IMG/VR virus record: IMGVR_UViG_3300020156_000035
Coordinates: 1-55,665 of that record
DNA from: a virus
DNA: 55,665 bases
Direction: 5' to 3' (one strand)
Shown: piece after piece, positions 3,007 through 55,665 of the stretch
Position numbering within the stretch: the stretch's first letter is position 1
Layout: each line of letters starts with the position of its first letter
Program-made: the position numbers and the translations under genes
The notes under the pieces: model-generated
Databases searched by the model: none
The model's input: only the letters and a program-made list of their open reading frames with translations
What the model was told of the DNA's origin: nothing

Positions 3007-4371
3007 ATGGGGAAACACTTTACCGGTGAAGAAATTTACAAGCTAAAATTTGAAACGCAGCCGGCCCTCACCTGGAACCAAATAGCGGAGCGATCCGGCG
3101 AACCATACCACGCCATCCGCAACCGCTGCCGCCGCTACATGAAGCGCCAGGGCGACAAACCAACGGCAGCAGCACCCCCACCGCCCACAGTGGACGGCGA
3201 ACGGGTCAACGACCAGACCGACCACAACACCCGCGAGGTCGAAAGCGCGTCAGGGCGCATCACCACCTTGCAGCAGCTCATCGACTACTGCAAGATCGAC
3301 CTGGCGGAATGGACCATCGAGCGGCACGTGATCAACAAATGGGAAGTTGGGGTCAAGCACCCTGACACCGGGCAGGTCTTGGTTGAACCTCTGTTCCAGG
3401 TCAAAGCAACGCTGGTCAAACGCCACCCGGAGGCGATCAAACCGGTAATCTCCCCCGTTTACATCAACGTAAAATTTAGCACGCCGCCCGAGCGCAAGCG
3501 CGGACTAAAACCCGCGCTGGTGCTGCCCGACCCGCAGTTTGGCTTCGCCCGCGAAATCTTTCACGGAAAATTGACCCCCTTCCATGACCGGCTGGCGCTG
3601 GACGTGGTGCGGCAAATCGCCCAGGTGATCGAGCCGGAGCTGTCGGTGTGGTTGGGCGATCTGGTGGACTTCTCCGGCTGGTCTGATAAATATATCAAGC
3701 AGCCGGAGTTTTATTGGACCACCCAGCCGGCGCTGATTGAAGCCTCCTGGAACATGGCCCGCATCCGGGCGCTGACGCGCGGCGCAGCATACGCCATTCC
3801 GGGCAATCACGATATGCGCCCCGAAACGCAAATCAAAACCCACCTGGTTGAAGCCTACGGGCTGAAAAGCGCCGATCAACTGGACGCGCCGCCGGTGATG
3901 AGCGTGGATAACCTGCTCGGGCTTTCCCGGATGGGCGTGACCTACGTGGAGAGCTACCCCAACGGCGAAGTATGGATCAACGAAACAACCAAGTGCATCC
4001 ACGGCGAAAAGGTGCGCGGGCAGCCGGGGCAGACTGCCGCCGCCGTGGTGCGCGATGCCAACGAAAACACGCTCTTTGGTCATATCCACCGGGCGGAGCT
4101 TGCCACCAAGACCATCCCCACCCGCGACGGCTACCGCAAGGTGACGGCCTACTCTCCCGGCTGTCTGTGCCACGTGGACGGGCGCGTACCGGGCAGCAGC
4201 AAGTCGAACCAATGGCAGCAGGGCGCGGCGGTGATCTGGTATGACGAGCGCGACAGTACCATCGTTCCCATAGATATATTCCGGGGCCGCGCCGTGTATC
4301 AAGGTGAACTGTACCAGGGCCGCGATTACGTCAACCAGCTGCGGGATGATACCTGTTGGGACCAGTTCTAG
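3007..4371 (+). CDS. HTH-metallophosphoesterase fusion protein
   Basis: A 454-residue protein with ribosome site AAGGA before the ATG. Residues ~5-45 look like a helix-turn-helix (TWNQIAERSGEPYHAIRNR). The C-terminal two thirds is a calcineurin-like metallophosphoesterase: LPDPQFG, GDLVDFSGW, GNHD (266-269) and GHIH (358-361) supply the usual metal ligands, although the first motif reads D-P-Q instead of D-x-H. The family cleaves phosphodiester or phosphomonoester bonds with two metal ions. The HTH suggests a DNA-directed phosphoesterase or nuclease. It is the last gene before the RNA genes at 4.4-4.9 kb. Its role in the phage is not known to me. Confidence 0.8.
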   Translation: MGKHFTGEEIYKLKFETQPALTWNQIAERSGEPYHAIRNRCRRYMKRQGDKPTAAAPPPPTVDGERVNDQTDHNTREVESASGRITTLQQLIDYCKIDLAEWTIERHVINKWEVGVKHPDTGQVLVEPLFQVKATLVKRHPEAIKPVISPVYINVKFSTPPERKRGLKPALVLPDPQFGFAREIFHGKLTPFHDRLALDVVRQIAQVIEPELSVWLGDLVDFSGWSDKYIKQPEFYWTTQPALIEASWNMARIRALTRGAAYAIPGNHDMRPETQIKTHLVEAYGLKSADQLDAPPVMSVDNLLGLSRMGVTYVESYPNGEVWINETTKCIHGEKVRGQPGQTAAAVVRDANENTLFGHIHRAELATKTIPTRDGYRKVTAYSPGCLCHVDGRVPGSSKSNQWQQGAAVIWYDERDSTIVPIDIFRGRAVYQGELYQGRDYVNQLRDDTCWDQF

Positions 4372-4375
4372 GCTA

Positions 4376-4404
4376 TTGATCCATCACGCCGCGCATGATA
4401 CAAT
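4376..4404 (+). promoter_or_regulatory. Strong extended -10 promoter for a noncoding RNA
   Basis: TTGATC (4376-4381), a 17-base spacer and TACAAT (4399-4404), with TGA immediately before the -10 (TGN extended -10). It starts five bases after the stop of the metallophosphoesterase gene. No good coding frame follows, and a terminator lies 350 bases downstream. No operator-like dyad is visible in the spacer, so it may be constitutive. Confidence 0.75.
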
Positions 4405-4410
4405 GTTTGT

Positions 4411-4790
4411 GACGGGTAACTGTGGGCGACATACCAGGGATGCGCCGCCAAAGTACACGGCATTGTATGTTCCAACCGCGCAAAGAGCGCATCCATGCCC
4501 GCCAAATGCCAGATAAAGACTGTACCCGAGCGAATAGCTTATAATCCCCCGAAAGGCAGCGCCAAAACATGCGCCTCGCCGGGCTTGGGATAACCTAGCT
4601 GGTCGTATGCTGGCATTAGTTCCCCACCACGCCTCTACCCTACGGGCAAGCGCACCGAGGTTCGGCCCCATCTAGTGCAAGGCTGACGTGACCGACTATC
4701 ACGGGGCTTGACGCAGCACCGGTCGGGGTGCTGTTGTCCATTTCTGTGTGAAAACACAAAAAGAGCCAACCTTGCCCGTTGGCTCTTTTT
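4411..4790 (+). ncRNA. Structured noncoding RNA, about 380 nt, class unknown
   Basis: Bounded by the promoter at 4376 and the terminator at 4758-4790, with no plausible gene inside. By-eye helices: 4438-4445 with 4487-4494 (8 pairs); a long interrupted helix 4506-4522 with 4600-4616, including seven clean ATGCCAG/CTGGCAT pairs; 4665-4669 with 4703-4707 around hairpin 4687-4703; hairpin 4714-4720/4727-4733 (CAGCACC/GGTGCTG); and a possible closing helix 4424-4431 with 4732-4739. It lacks the hallmark sequences of tmRNA, RNase P RNA and a full tRNA. Large ornate phage RNAs such as GOLLD or ROOL are worth comparing, but those are longer. Function unknown. Confidence 0.65.
4758..4790. terminator. 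Two-way rho-independent terminator
   Basis: AAAAAGAGCCAAC, a 7-base loop, then GTTGGCTCTTTTT: a perfect 13-pair hairpin with A-run and T-run flanks, so it works on both strands. It ends the plus-strand RNA from 4411, the minus-strand RNA from about 4910, and the minus-strand gene transcripts coming from 8.5 kb. Confidence 0.93.
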
Positions 4791-4910
4791 CTCGGCGCTT
4801 CCCAGCGTCCCCGGTTTGCCGTTGACCAGACGGCCAGGATACATTCCGCGCCCAGGATCGCCGGGGGGAAATTTGTGCCTTGCGGCAGCCCCGGTTTACC
4901 TTGGCGCTCG
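4758..4910 (-). ncRNA. Structured noncoding RNA, about 150 nt, minus strand
   Basis: It starts about 4910, seven bases after the -10 of a good minus-strand promoter, and ends at the shared terminator. The fold is dense for its size: outer helix 4848-4856/4899-4907, inner helix 4861-4866/4889-4894, and an apical stem 4876-4879/4884-4887 capped by GCAA. These are followed by hairpin 4818-4822/4830-4834 (GCCGT/ACGGC) and hairpin 4796-4799/4804-4807 capped by GGGA. Two GNRA tetraloops in 150 bases speak for a real RNA. A start-to-stop frame overlaps it but runs on into the plus RNA and shows no protein-like signal. Function unknown. Confidence 0.6.
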
Positions 4911-4916
4911 CCGTCC

Positions 4917-4945
4917 AGTATAGCAAATCCGGCGCGGGGGTGCAA
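4917..4945 (-). promoter_or_regulatory. Promoter for the minus-strand noncoding RNA
   Basis: On the minus strand: TTGCAC (4945-4940), 17 bases, TATACT (4922-4917), preceded by TGC (extended -10). It lies just downstream of the DUF551 gene end and faces the terminator at 4758. Confidence 0.7.
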
Positions 4946-4981
4946 TACATGCTGATATTGTGCGTGAGATCAGCGCGGTGG

Positions 4982-5443
4982 TCAGGCGTTCTCCCCTCCT
5001 TCTTTTGGCCCCTGCCGGTCGATGATGTGCCGCCAATGCGTTACCCAACTCATATCCAGCGTGGTATCGTAGCAGTTCACCCACCGCCCGCGATACCAGC
5101 AAATCGCTATGGTGTCATACGCGCCGAATGTTTCCACCATACAGCCCCAATCGGGCAGCCGTTCGCTGACGGGTATCCAGCGCGTTGCTTCGCGCAGCCG
5201 GGCGATTTCCTCCTGCTGTTCAAAGATATGCTCATTGAATCGGTTCAGCCGGTCATAGTGGATGGCATATTCCCACAGCACGCCGATCAGCGTTTCGCGC
5301 AAGATAACCGGGTCATCACCCGCCAATGCCTCGCGAAGGTGGACCGGATGGGTTGCCTGATGCTTGCCGACTTTGGTAAGCGTTGTCCCGTTGGGAAATA
5401 GTTCAGCAAACAGCTTGCCGGGTTCAATTTTATCGTCGTTCAT
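4982..5443 (-). CDS. DUF551 domain protein
   Basis: A 153-residue protein. The ATG at 5443 is chosen because GGGAGG lies five bases upstream; an ATG one codon earlier sits too close to it. The C-terminal ~60 residues match the DUF551 pattern common in phages: WIPVSERLPDWG at the start and THWRHI at the end. The N-terminal half is helical (LFAELFPNGTTL, then a glutamate-rich segment). Function of DUF551 is unknown. It is the last gene of the minus-strand par operon region and lies beyond the repeat cluster at 5556-5633. Confidence 0.75.
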   Translation of the reverse strand: MNDDKIEPGKLFAELFPNGTTLTKVGKHQATHPVHLREALAGDDPVILRETLIGVLWEYAIHYDRLNRFNEHIFEQQEEIARLREATRWIPVSERLPDWGCMVETFGAYDTIAICWYRGRWVNCYDTTLDMSWVTHWRHIIDRQGPKEGGENA

Positions 5444-5555
5444 CATACCTCCCTTATCATCATATCGCTTCTGTTTGTTTTTTGCTACGATGCCCTGTGG
5501 TGTTCTGATCGTTCCCGGTGTACCCCTACCCATACAAGGGTGTTTCGTGCCATCA

Positions 5556-5633
5556 TGCGGTGACGCATTTGCGGTACTTTCCAGTGTCACCGCATAGCGT
5601 AACCGTTTTGCGGTGACGTTTTGCGGTGACGCA
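5556..5633. repeat. GCGGTGAC repeat cluster, putative partition centromere
   Basis: Four copies of a TGCGGTGACG-type motif: direct at 5556-5567, inverted at 5585-5594 (TGTCACCGCA), and direct at 5606-5618 and 5619-5633. They lie just beyond the ParA-RHH gene pair in a gap of about 200 bases with no gene. Small ParA systems with RHH partners often have the centromere as short repeats next to the operon. Inference: the RHH protein binds here. An alternative is a transcriptional operator or a second replication site. Confidence 0.65.
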
Positions 5634-5646
5634 TAAAATAAAATTT

Positions 5647-6039
5647 TTAGAGCCTCTGTTTTGAGTTTTTGAAACGCCCGACGATTTCCGGAAACTCCAA
5701 ATGGTTCGGATATCGCATACTTCGGCTCGGTTTCAGGTGGTTCTCAATCGCATCGTCTTTGGTGCTGTTGCGCCCCGTAATCGCCCAAAACACTAACACC
5801 TGACTGGCTGTGATCCCGTATTCCTCTGCCACCCGGAAGGCTTCTTGCCGCAGTTCCAGCGGAATATCAACGTGCATCCGCACCCGCCCACGCTCGTATT
5901 CCAGGCGCTTGCGTTCGTCCGGTTCCATCTCGATAGCGCGCTGCACATCAACGCCCCCCACCGCATCTCGGATGGCTGGCTCAACACCCTCGAAGTCTAT
6001 GTCTAATCGTTCTTCGTCGTCCCGCTTTGACTTTCCCAT
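5647..6039 (-). CDS. Ribbon-helix-helix ParA partner (ParB/ParG-like)
   Basis: A 130-residue protein. ATG at 6039 with GAGG six bases upstream; an upstream GTG overlaps the parA stop. A basic, acidic-mixed N terminus leads to an RHH-like segment (VRMHVDIPLELRQEAFRVAEEYGITA cut here as VRMHVDIPLE and RQEAFRVAEEYGI). It starts right at the stop of parA, so translation is coupled. Inference: it binds the repeats at 5556-5633 and stimulates ParA. The alternative is an orphan RHH repressor. Confidence 0.7.
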   Translation of the reverse strand: MGKSKRDDEERLDIDFEGVEPAIRDAVGGVDVQRAIEMEPDERKRLEYERGRVRMHVDIPLELRQEAFRVAEEYGITASQVLVFWAITGRNSTKDDAIENHLKPSRSMRYPNHLEFPEIVGRFKNSKQRL

Positions 6040-6041
6040 GT

Positions 6042-6869
6042 TCACCTCACCAGCGTAGAAAGGATTTCGCCCAGGTGCAGGTATCCACCCGTCAGCCCTT
6101 CCGAGTTGATATGTTCGCCGCCGTTCTTGTACCCAATGGCCGATGTCGAGCGCGGGGCGTGTTCCCAGATCGTGCGCCCGTAGGACGGTGCTTCACGGAT
6201 GCGGGTTTCAAACGGGATCGCCGGCAGCACTAGACCTTTCAGCGCCTTTTTGATGTTCTCATGGTTCTTCTCGGTTTCGCCTGTGGTCCGGTCAAACATG
6301 GTCGGCAGTACGCCCACCAACTGCGGGGCTTTGGTGTCCAGGTCGCGCAGCTGCTTGACGCTGTTGAGCACCTCCTTGATACCGTCCATCGCCAGCTTAT
6401 CCAGCTTGACGGGGATGATCAGGAAGTCGCTTGCCATCAGGCCCGACACGTGCAGCACATCGCTACCCGGCGCAAGGTCAAGGATTGCCACGTCAAAACC
6501 TTCAGCGGCTTTGAGGATGCGCTTTGCGACGAATAACCCGAGTTGTCCCTGTACGCTTGTATTCTGCATCAGCGCCGTAATGATGCCCCCGCCCGACTTG
6601 CTGTTGTCGATCAGGTACAGGTTATCGCGCTGGTACTTCTCGCGGCTGGCTGGTCGGATAACCCTGCTCGGTTCTTCCTTGCCGACGATCAGCCGGTACA
6701 GCCCGTCACCCTTTGACAAGCCCAGCGCCAGGGCGCAATGTCCCTGCTGGTCAAAGTCAATCAGCAGCGTCTTTTTGCCGTGCATGGCGAACCACGCAGC
6801 CAGGTTGACCGCCGTGGTCGTCTTGCCGACGCCGCCCTTCAAATTCGCTACACAAATCACCTTCGCCAC
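6042..6869 (-). CDS. parA: ParA-family partition ATPase
   Basis: A 275-residue protein starting at a GTG five bases after GGAGG. The deviant Walker A KGGVGKT lies at residues 11-17, followed by LIDFDQQGHCALALG (Walker A' type) and VAILDLAPGSD (Walker B). There is no N-terminal HTH, as in small-type ParA proteins. ParA proteins segregate low-copy plasmids and plasmid prophages by dynamic binding to the nucleoid. The RHH partner and repeats follow directly. Together with the absence of an integrase this points to extrachromosomal lysogeny. Confidence 0.92.
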   Translation of the reverse strand: MAKVICVANLKGGVGKTTTAVNLAAWFAMHGKKTLLIDFDQQGHCALALGLSKGDGLYRLIVGKEEPSRVIRPASREKYQRDNLYLIDNSKSGGGIITALMQNTSVQGQLGLFVAKRILKAAEGFDVAILDLAPGSDVLHVSGLMASDFLIIPVKLDKLAMDGIKEVLNSVKQLRDLDTKAPQLVGVLPTMFDRTTGETEKNHENIKKALKGLVLPAIPFETRIREAPSYGRTIWEHAPRSTSAIGYKNGGEHINSEGLTGGYLHLGEILSTLVR

Positions 6870-31695: not shown

Positions 31696-31724
31696 TTGCT
31701 TTTTACTGTAAAGATTGCTATAAT
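31696..31724 (+). promoter_or_regulatory. Strong late promoter candidate
   Basis: TTGCTT (31696-31701), 17 bases, TATAAT (31719-31724), with TGC before the -10. It is just after the regulator gene and 260 bases before the holin gene. Confidence 0.8.
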
Positions 31725-31730
31725 CGTTAT

Positions 31731-31807
31731 GACTGTAACAACTGAATAAACCGAAAGGTTTTGTAAGTCGGGTCAAGCCGACACTCTAAACGGGTGTCGG
31801 CTTTTTT
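31731..31807 (+). ncRNA. Short leader RNA ended by a terminator
   Basis: From the promoter start to the T-run is about 77 bases. It holds a hairpin AAACC-GAAA-GGTTT (31748-31761) and then the terminator AGCCGACAC/GTGTCGGCT (31776-31784/31794-31802) with a T-run to 31807. It could be a stand-alone small RNA or the aborted leader of the late transcript, as with lambda 6S RNA at pR'-tR'. Confidence 0.7.
31776..31807 (+). terminator. Rho-independent terminator in the late leader
   Basis: Nine-pair stem AGCCGACAC/GTGTCGGCT with a 9-base loop and a seven-base T-run. It stands between the late promoter and all lysis and head genes, so these need read-through, another promoter or antitermination. 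Confidence 0.9.
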
Positions 31808-31820
31808 ATTTGAAGGATTA

Positions 31821-53559: not shown

Positions 53560-53599
53560 GGTTTGTTTCCTTTATGTGTGCGGTAATGGTTTATTTACC

Positions 53600-53628
53600 A
53601 TGTTATCAGATATAGGACAGCACTGCAA
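53600..53628 (-). promoter_or_regulatory. Promoter of the exported-protein gene
   Basis: TTGCAG (53628-53623), 17 bases, TAACAT (53605-53600), with TGA before the -10, on the minus strand. A GGTAAT/ATTTACC imperfect dyad lies just downstream (53582-53599). Confidence 0.6.
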
Positions 53629-53719
53629 GATTGTTGACACCATCGCCGCGATGCTGACCCGCGCGCTGCGCGAGGGAACCTGGCCGCGCGGCGGGGACCG
53701 GGGGCCGGTGGGTGGATAA
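53600..53719 (+). CDS. Small peptide (uncertain)
   Basis: A 39-codon frame (MLSDIGQHCKIVDTIAAMLT) directly before the small basic gene at 53722. No good ribosome site, and it overlaps the minus-strand promoter. It may be chance. Confidence 0.25.
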   Translation: MLSDIGQHCKIVDTIAAMLTRALREGTWPRGGDRGPVGG

Positions 53720-53721
53720 CG

Positions 53722-53886
53722 ATGAAACCAACGTGCAAGGCGGAAGCAGACTACGCCATCTGGCGACCGGACAACCCGCGCCTGTGGTATCGCGGCTTTG
53801 GCAAATACGCCAAACGGCAGATGAACCGGGCGAGGCGCAGACAGTGGAAGCGGGAACGAATGACAATCAGGCATGTAGACGTATAA
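53722..53886 (+). CDS. Small basic protein, paralogue of 18026-18190
   Basis: A 54-residue, Arg/Lys-rich protein; FGKYAKRQMNRARRRQWKRE matches the pattern of the protein at 18026. GGTGGATAACG lies before the ATG. Probably binds nucleic acid. Confidence 0.5.
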   Translation: MKPTCKAEADYAIWRPDNPRLWYRGFGKYAKRQMNRARRRQWKRERMTIRHVDV

Positions 53887-53989
53887 GGTAATAAAGATAT
53901 ACTACTGCTGATATATTAGCAATATCAGTAGAAGCAGAAATATATCAAGGAAAAAGTATGCTGGCAGTATGCGCGAACAACACAAATAA

Positions 53990-54018
53990 AATAGCCCAGG
54001 CATTTCACCTGGGCTATT
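53990..54018 (-). terminator. Terminator of the 54.0-54.7 kb minus operon
   Basis: AATAGCCCAGG/CCTGGGCTATT (11 pairs, 7-base loop), with TTTTATTTG following on the minus strand. It is 15 bases after the stop of the gene at 54033. A further hairpin lies at 53903-53932. Confidence 0.85.
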
Positions 54019-54032
54019 GTGCTGCGCGTGTG

Positions 54033-54801: not shown

Positions 54802-55665
54802 ATGGCATATACAAAGGGTATCGACACCAGCACCCACCAGGACTCGCCCCAAATCAAAGGCAATATCGACTGGTCCAAACCTAAGCTATACGAAGTGCAG
54901 TTTGTCATCAACCGCGTGACCTTCTGCGCCACAAAGGATGATGACTTCGACCGCAACTGGAACGAGCAGCGCGGGCGTTACCTGCGCGGGGCCTACGGCT
55001 TTTGGGGCTACTGGCCCGGCGCGCCGGAGATGGGCTTGCAGGTGCGCGCCGTGGTGGATGCGCTGAAACCCGACCGGGGCGAAATGCCGGTGGTGTGGGC
55101 GGACGTGGAAAAGGCCAATAACAACTACCGCCCGCTGCCGCCTCGCGCCGAAGCCCTGGCGCTGCTGGAACGCTACATGAAGGGCATCGAGGACGGGCTG
55201 GGCATGGGAACGGGGCTGTATACCAACATCTCCGGTCTGGTGGCCCTTGCGCCGATCCCGCCCTGGCTGCTGGCAAAGCCGCTGTGGATTGCCTGGCCGC
55301 TCTCCCCATCCACCGCTGAAACCACCGAAGCGTATATTGCCCGCACCGGCGTTACCCCGCCCATCGCCAAATACTGGCCCAAGCCCTTCACCTGCTGGCA
55401 ATTTTCGTGGAAGGGACCGGGGCTAGCAATGGGCATGGAAAGCCACGGTTTAGATATGAACTACTACGCCGGCAGCACCGACGCCCTGCGCGCCTGGTGC
55501 GGCCTGTCGGCCCCTACCCAACCCCCTGTAGACCCTGGAAAGGATGAACCAACCATGCACGAAAACAACTTTATCATTGTCTCCAACTACAACAACCAGG
55601 ATGCGGTCGCGTCCCCGGTGATGGACTTTGACCAACTCGCCGCCGAGGGCGTGGAAGGCTTCGGC
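54802..55665 (+). CDS. GH25-type endolysin, N-terminal part (continues at 128)
   Basis: The gene continues across the circular junction to 958, giving 564 residues in all; AGGTAGGC precedes the ATG. Residues ~1-215 are a GH25 muramidase: GIDTSTHQ (Asp 8), a central VVWADVEK with the catalytic D-x-E at 101-103, and CWQFSWKG near the end of the domain. The enzyme cuts the glycan chain of peptidoglycan at lysis. A linker (TQPPVDPGKDEPT) leads to the second domain. The holin is at 31982. Two ATGTTCT direct repeats 18 bases apart lie upstream (54753-54777). Confidence 0.9.
   Translation, partial: MAYTKGIDTSTHQDSPQIKGNIDWSKPKLYEVQFVINRVTFCATKDDDFDRNWNEQRGRYLRGAYGFWGYWPGAPEMGLQVRAVVDALKPDRGEMPVVWADVEKANNNYRPLPPRAEALALLERYMKGIEDGLGMGTGLYTNISGLVALAPIPPWLLAKPLWIAWPLSPSTAETTEAYIARTGVTPPIAKYWPKPFTCWQFSWKGPGLAMGMESHGLDMNYYAGSTDALRAWCGLSAPTQPPVDPGKDEPTMHENNFIIVSNYNNQDAVASPVMDFDQLAAEGVEGFG
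55539..55665. repeat. Terminal overlap, copy 2 (circular closure)
   Basis: Identical to bases 1-127, see copy 1. It shows that the window is a complete circular assembly with the overlap retained. Confidence 0.93.

Follow-up and report, generated by a model that had tools for sequence, protein, structure and literature searches.

A candidate noncoding transcription unit between convergent operons of a phage with a probable Anaerolineae host

Introduction

Intrinsic terminators that act in both directions sit between convergent operons, and typical base-pairing small RNAs (sRNAs) are shorter than ~380 nt. Regulatory sRNAs encoded by phages have been reviewed (PMC12197685), as have sRNAs derived from 3′ untranslated regions (3′UTRs; PMC9438474). 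The GOLLD and ROOL RNAs have extensive covarying structure and kissing loops and are often found near tRNA islands; many GOLLD members exceed 800 nt (PMC12286853).

Here we analyse a gene-free gap of a phage genome in which we predict an RNA of ~380 nt and a convergent second RNA. The candidate resembles phage-encoded sRNAs in being noncoding and intergenic, with its own promoter and intrinsic terminator (both predicted here) in a phage genome. It differs in being longer than typical base-pairing sRNAs and without an assigned target, and its transcript is a prediction from sequence. With 3′UTR-derived sRNAs it has in common a start just past a stop codon and the use of an operon's terminator, but here a promoter is predicted downstream of the stop codon. 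Like GOLLD and ROOL the candidate is phage-encoded and of unassigned function, and kissing loops occur in both, although here only as a candidate pair. In contrast to them it matches no Rfam covariance model, has no tRNA island, no supported elaborate structure and no homologues in the collections searched, and is shorter than GOLLD. Its terminator has the position of a bidirectional terminator and the same hairpin with an A-tract and a T-tract, but lies in a long gap with two convergent promoter-like sites.

Results

The phage and its probable host

The window, by which we mean the whole stretch of DNA analysed, is a record of 55,665 bases whose two ends (1-127 and 55539-55665) are direct repeats of 127 bases. 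These terminal repeats point to a genome that is probably complete and circularly permuted, 55,538 bases in length. The genome is siphovirus-like and encodes a terminase, a portal, a capsid protein, a GDSL hydrolase, a metallophosphoesterase, ParA, a DnaB-like helicase and a replication-initiation protein; no tRNA genes were found in the whole 55,665-nt window. The phage is isolated, with a best terminase identity of ~72%. In cellular genomes the terminase relatives of highest identity came from a metagenome-assembled genome (MAG) labelled 'bacterium', a Chloroflexi MAG, two Anaerolineae MAGs and Anaerolinea thermolimosa. Because the nearest relatives with a named host fall within the Anaerolineae, the host probably belongs there as well.

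The cumulative GC skew turns near 16-17 kb, adjoining the replication-initiation gene; a replication origin at 4376-4790 was therefore rejected. On the minus strand, within 5647-6869, ParA (6042-6869) is followed by a 130-aa protein without a match in Pfam or PHROGs that has a ribbon-helix-helix appearance by eye. Together the two proteins suggest that the phage may persist in a plasmid-like manner.

A gene-free gap between two operons

The metallophosphoesterase stop codon closes the rightward operon at 4371, and the leftward ParA operon ends at 4982, leaving a gap of 610 nt. This gene-free gap is among the longest of the genome, where others of like length exist, and it is the sole gap of at least 350 nt in which two top-15 promoters face a strong terminator. 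No coding signal was detected in any of the six frames of 4376-4980, in an assay where a control gene scored strongly, which bears out the earlier note's view that the stretch holds no plausible gene. The GC content of the gap, 0.58, equals that of the genome, whereas many other gaps are lower. Such a long gap at genomic GC could be what is left of a decayed gene or an inserted element that has lost its coding capacity. We regard this origin as unlikely, since coding bias is absent from every frame as judged by codon usage, the one measure applied to frame remnants, and since the gap has no DNA similarity to the phages, plasmids and related records searched.

A high-ranking promoter and a bidirectional terminator

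Five bases past the metallophosphoesterase stop codon begins the extended -10 promoter of the sigma-70 type that had been reported earlier (TTGATC-N17-TACAAT, 4376-4404, plus strand). Its TG, at 4396-4397, lies one base before the -10 hexamer, and the expected start is near 4410. Plain consensus counts are close to shuffle level, with 0.7 sites expected in 1.6 kb, and in the first 20 kb 8 promoter-like sites were found against 9.2 expected from shuffles. We therefore rescored all 55.7 kb with a sigma-70 weight matrix that reflects what is generally known of E. coli promoters. With the two strands taken together, the site ranked 9th in the genome. Because of this rank, and because the high-ranking sites are mostly intergenic and immediately 5′ of genes, 4376-4404 is a credible promoter.

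Downstream lies an intrinsic terminator at 4758-4790 with perfect 13-bp arms and a 7-nt loop (AAAAAGAGCCAAC-7 nt-GTTGGCTCTTTTT). The earlier note had described a perfect terminator, and the strong 13-bp hairpin is indeed perfect; it is also bidirectional, with U-tracts in both directions, and is simply explained as shared by two convergent operons. Positioned between the operon ends at 4371 (plus strand) and 4982 (minus strand), it serves both, so that its presence does not by itself argue for an RNA gene of its own.

These features can be read in a second way. The main and plainest rival to a noncoding RNA unit is an ordinary intergenic trailer, a 3′ untranslated spacer between convergent operons with a common bidirectional terminator, in which the promoter occurs by chance or is inconsequential. 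The gene order and the hairpin are as expected of such a spacer, and the near-shuffle number of consensus sites would suit a chance promoter. On the other hand, the promoter is in the genome's top 10, a group in which most sites stand where real promoters would be expected, and the spacer would be of unusual length, reaching the hairpin after 387 nt from one side and 191 from the other. Taking these points with the folding and conservation results below, we judge a trailer to be a serious possibility that falls well short of an even chance.

The bounding promoter and terminator, as predicted from sequence, and the lack of coding capacity are features of a noncoding RNA gene. Given the high rank of the promoter, the terminator downstream and the absence of coding signal, the region could plausibly be an independent noncoding transcription unit driven by its own promoter. 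Its predicted product is a noncoding transcript of ~380 nt (4411-4790, plus strand, no coding signal in six frames), and we lean moderately towards the view that this transcript is produced.

A predicted convergent unit on the minus strand

Several elements had been overlooked in the earlier note: a minus-strand promoter, a candidate kissing-loop pair and a stretch with complementarity to the loop of the terminator. The promoter is a convergent extended -10 site (TTGCAC-N17-TATACT, 4945-4917) that ranked 14th in the genome by weight matrix, with a start near 4911. From its rank and the lack of coding signal, we predict a noncoding transcript of ~154 nt (4911-4758, minus strand) that ends at the common hairpin. 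Folding of this strand compared with shuffles gave z = -2.58 with the terminator (4758-4914) and -1.01 without it (4791-4914). Inside the predicted RNA is a 12-nt near-repeat (CCCCGGTTTGCC at 4809-4820 and CCCCGGTTTACC at 4889-4900), which is not clearly above chance genome-wide.

RNA folding and local structure

Compared with dinucleotide shuffles, the whole plus-strand RNA with its terminator gave z = -1.35, and its opposite strand folded equally well (z = -1.49). Without the terminator the body (4411-4757) folded no better than shuffles (z = +0.36), a result also expected of a trailer. Pair entropy was below the shuffle mean yet not unusual, with 16% of shuffles at or under the observed value. 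The folding energy across the whole RNA was thus not set below shuffles as in a structured RNA.

Individual segments behaved differently from the body. All local positives below were picked post hoc, after several segments had been inspected, and their true significance is therefore weaker than the values given. Among the segments tested, one body domain that folded better than shuffles was a long irregular hairpin at 4503-4620 (plus strand, z = -2.10) closed by AATGCCAG/CTGGCATT. It holds the long-range helix that had been proposed between 4506-4522 and 4600-4616, whose complementarity is real (4506-4512/4610-4616 and 4518-4522/4600-4604), as is that of the proposed CAGCACC/GGTGCTG hairpin, although overall folding is at shuffle level. 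The pseudoknot proposed between CGGGTA (4413-4418) and TACCCG (4523-4528) likewise joins complementary segments, but at chance level: by a rough calculation, 380 nt should contain ~17 exact 6-bp complements.

The segment 4680-4757 also folded better than shuffles (z = -2.35). Two adjacent plus-strand hairpins within it, CGTGA[CCGACTA]TCACG at 4687-4703 and one at 4713-4734 that contains CAGCACC[GGTCGG]GGTGCTG, are candidate partners in a kissing loop. Their loops (4692-4698 and 4721-4726) could form six pairs, one of them G-U, and the loop-loop score was reached by 15 of 1,000 shuffles. Immediately 5′ of the terminator, sequence and folding indicate a hairpin with a GNRA tetraloop (TGTGT[GAAA]ACACA, 4745-4758, plus strand). 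Further upstream, CCTACGGGCAAG (4639-4650, plus strand) is complementary at 11 of 12 positions to 4771-4782, which comprises the loop of the terminator and the first bases of the 3′ arm, a match reached by 15 of 5,000 shuffles. A pairing between them, as a pseudoknot or an anti-terminator, is possible.

Searches for homologues and targets

An Rfam search of the region, which the earlier note had suggested, returned no family at gathering or permissive thresholds; the two matches, far under the cut-off, were both on the terminator hairpin. ARAGORN and the Rfam models for tmRNA, RNase P RNA, group I introns and other catalogued RNAs gave no match, in agreement with the earlier statement that the RNA is neither tmRNA nor RNase P RNA. 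No match was found by blastn of phages and plasmids. We looked for relatives of the phage through the metallophosphoesterase, terminase, capsid, ParA and the protein of 4982-5590, and none was close; metallophosphoesterase relatives carry different sequence downstream of that gene.

No homologue was recovered by DNA search of the full records of 46 related or candidate viruses, or by nhmmer and blastn over 2.6 Mb of loci. These searches returned only 15-45-nt matches, and those inspected were in coding sequence or an unrelated terminator. Exact 15-mer scans of viral contigs with three body segments gave about the number of matches expected by chance (a rough estimate), none extending over the RNA. 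Structure models of two domains found nothing besides the window itself, the next-best match being inside a terminase gene. Searches of 396 and 298 Anaerolineae genomes, run with no positive control within those genomes, gave no match. The searches recover the window itself, and records very close to it may have been excluded from the collections; the absence of homologues is therefore weak evidence. It is nonetheless in keeping with a trailer. Within the phage, the best antisense duplex at translation start regions was reached by 25% of shuffles.

These results bear on the earlier proposal of a large ornate structured RNA, possibly of a further class. A new RNA in the manner of GOLLD and ROOL, one that has conserved tertiary contacts and might form multimers, would fit the phage location, the kissing-loop candidate, the GNRA hairpin and the long-range domain. 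Against it, the body has the folding energy of shuffles, there is no Rfam match, the genome lacks tRNAs, the RNA is shorter than GOLLD, and the collections searched held no homologues and hence no covariation. With the body folding as shuffles do and the pseudoknot at chance, the proposal finds no support, and we consider such an RNA highly improbable.

Discussion

Our preferred reading, to which we give about an even chance, is a lineage-specific noncoding transcription unit of the phage, comprising a ~380-nt regulatory RNA and a convergent ~154-nt RNA with one terminator. Under this model host RNA polymerase would start near 4410 at the extended -10 promoter and halt at the bidirectional terminator 4758-4790, yielding the ~380-nt RNA. 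Transcription from the promoter at 4945 would yield the ~154-nt RNA of the opposite strand, terminated at the same hairpin. The plus-strand RNA would be regulatory, acting by base-pairing or as a decoy. Its 3′ third may be held by the kissing-loop pair, and GGGCAAG (4644-4650) may pair with CUUGCCC in the loop of the terminator (4771-4777), an interaction that could shield the 3′ end or modulate termination. It is improbable, though conceivable, that the locus represents a new class of ~380-nt phage RNA whose 3′ third is locked by the kissing loop and by a pseudoknot into its own terminator loop, with a convergent second noncoding RNA on the common hairpin.

If transcribed, the region would provide a noncoding RNA from a phage with its nearest terminase relatives in Anaerolineae, and an example of two convergent noncoding RNAs with one common terminator. 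To our knowledge, little is known of the biology of Anaerolineae phages. At present the region is a candidate with no homologue in the collections searched.

Elsewhere in the genome, the fifth-best promoter (TTGCTT-N17-TATAAT with TG) lies within 31696-31810 on the plus strand, with a strong terminator (31775-31803) 45 bases past the start site. This locus could encode an sRNA of ~80 nt or be an attenuator, and has a short open frame (ATGACTGTAACAACTGAATAA) at its 5′ end. Another gene-free gap, of 473 nt (53560-54032, minus strand), contains several minus-strand promoter-like sites, that at 53967-53939 ranking 12th, and also a strong terminator at 54018-53990.
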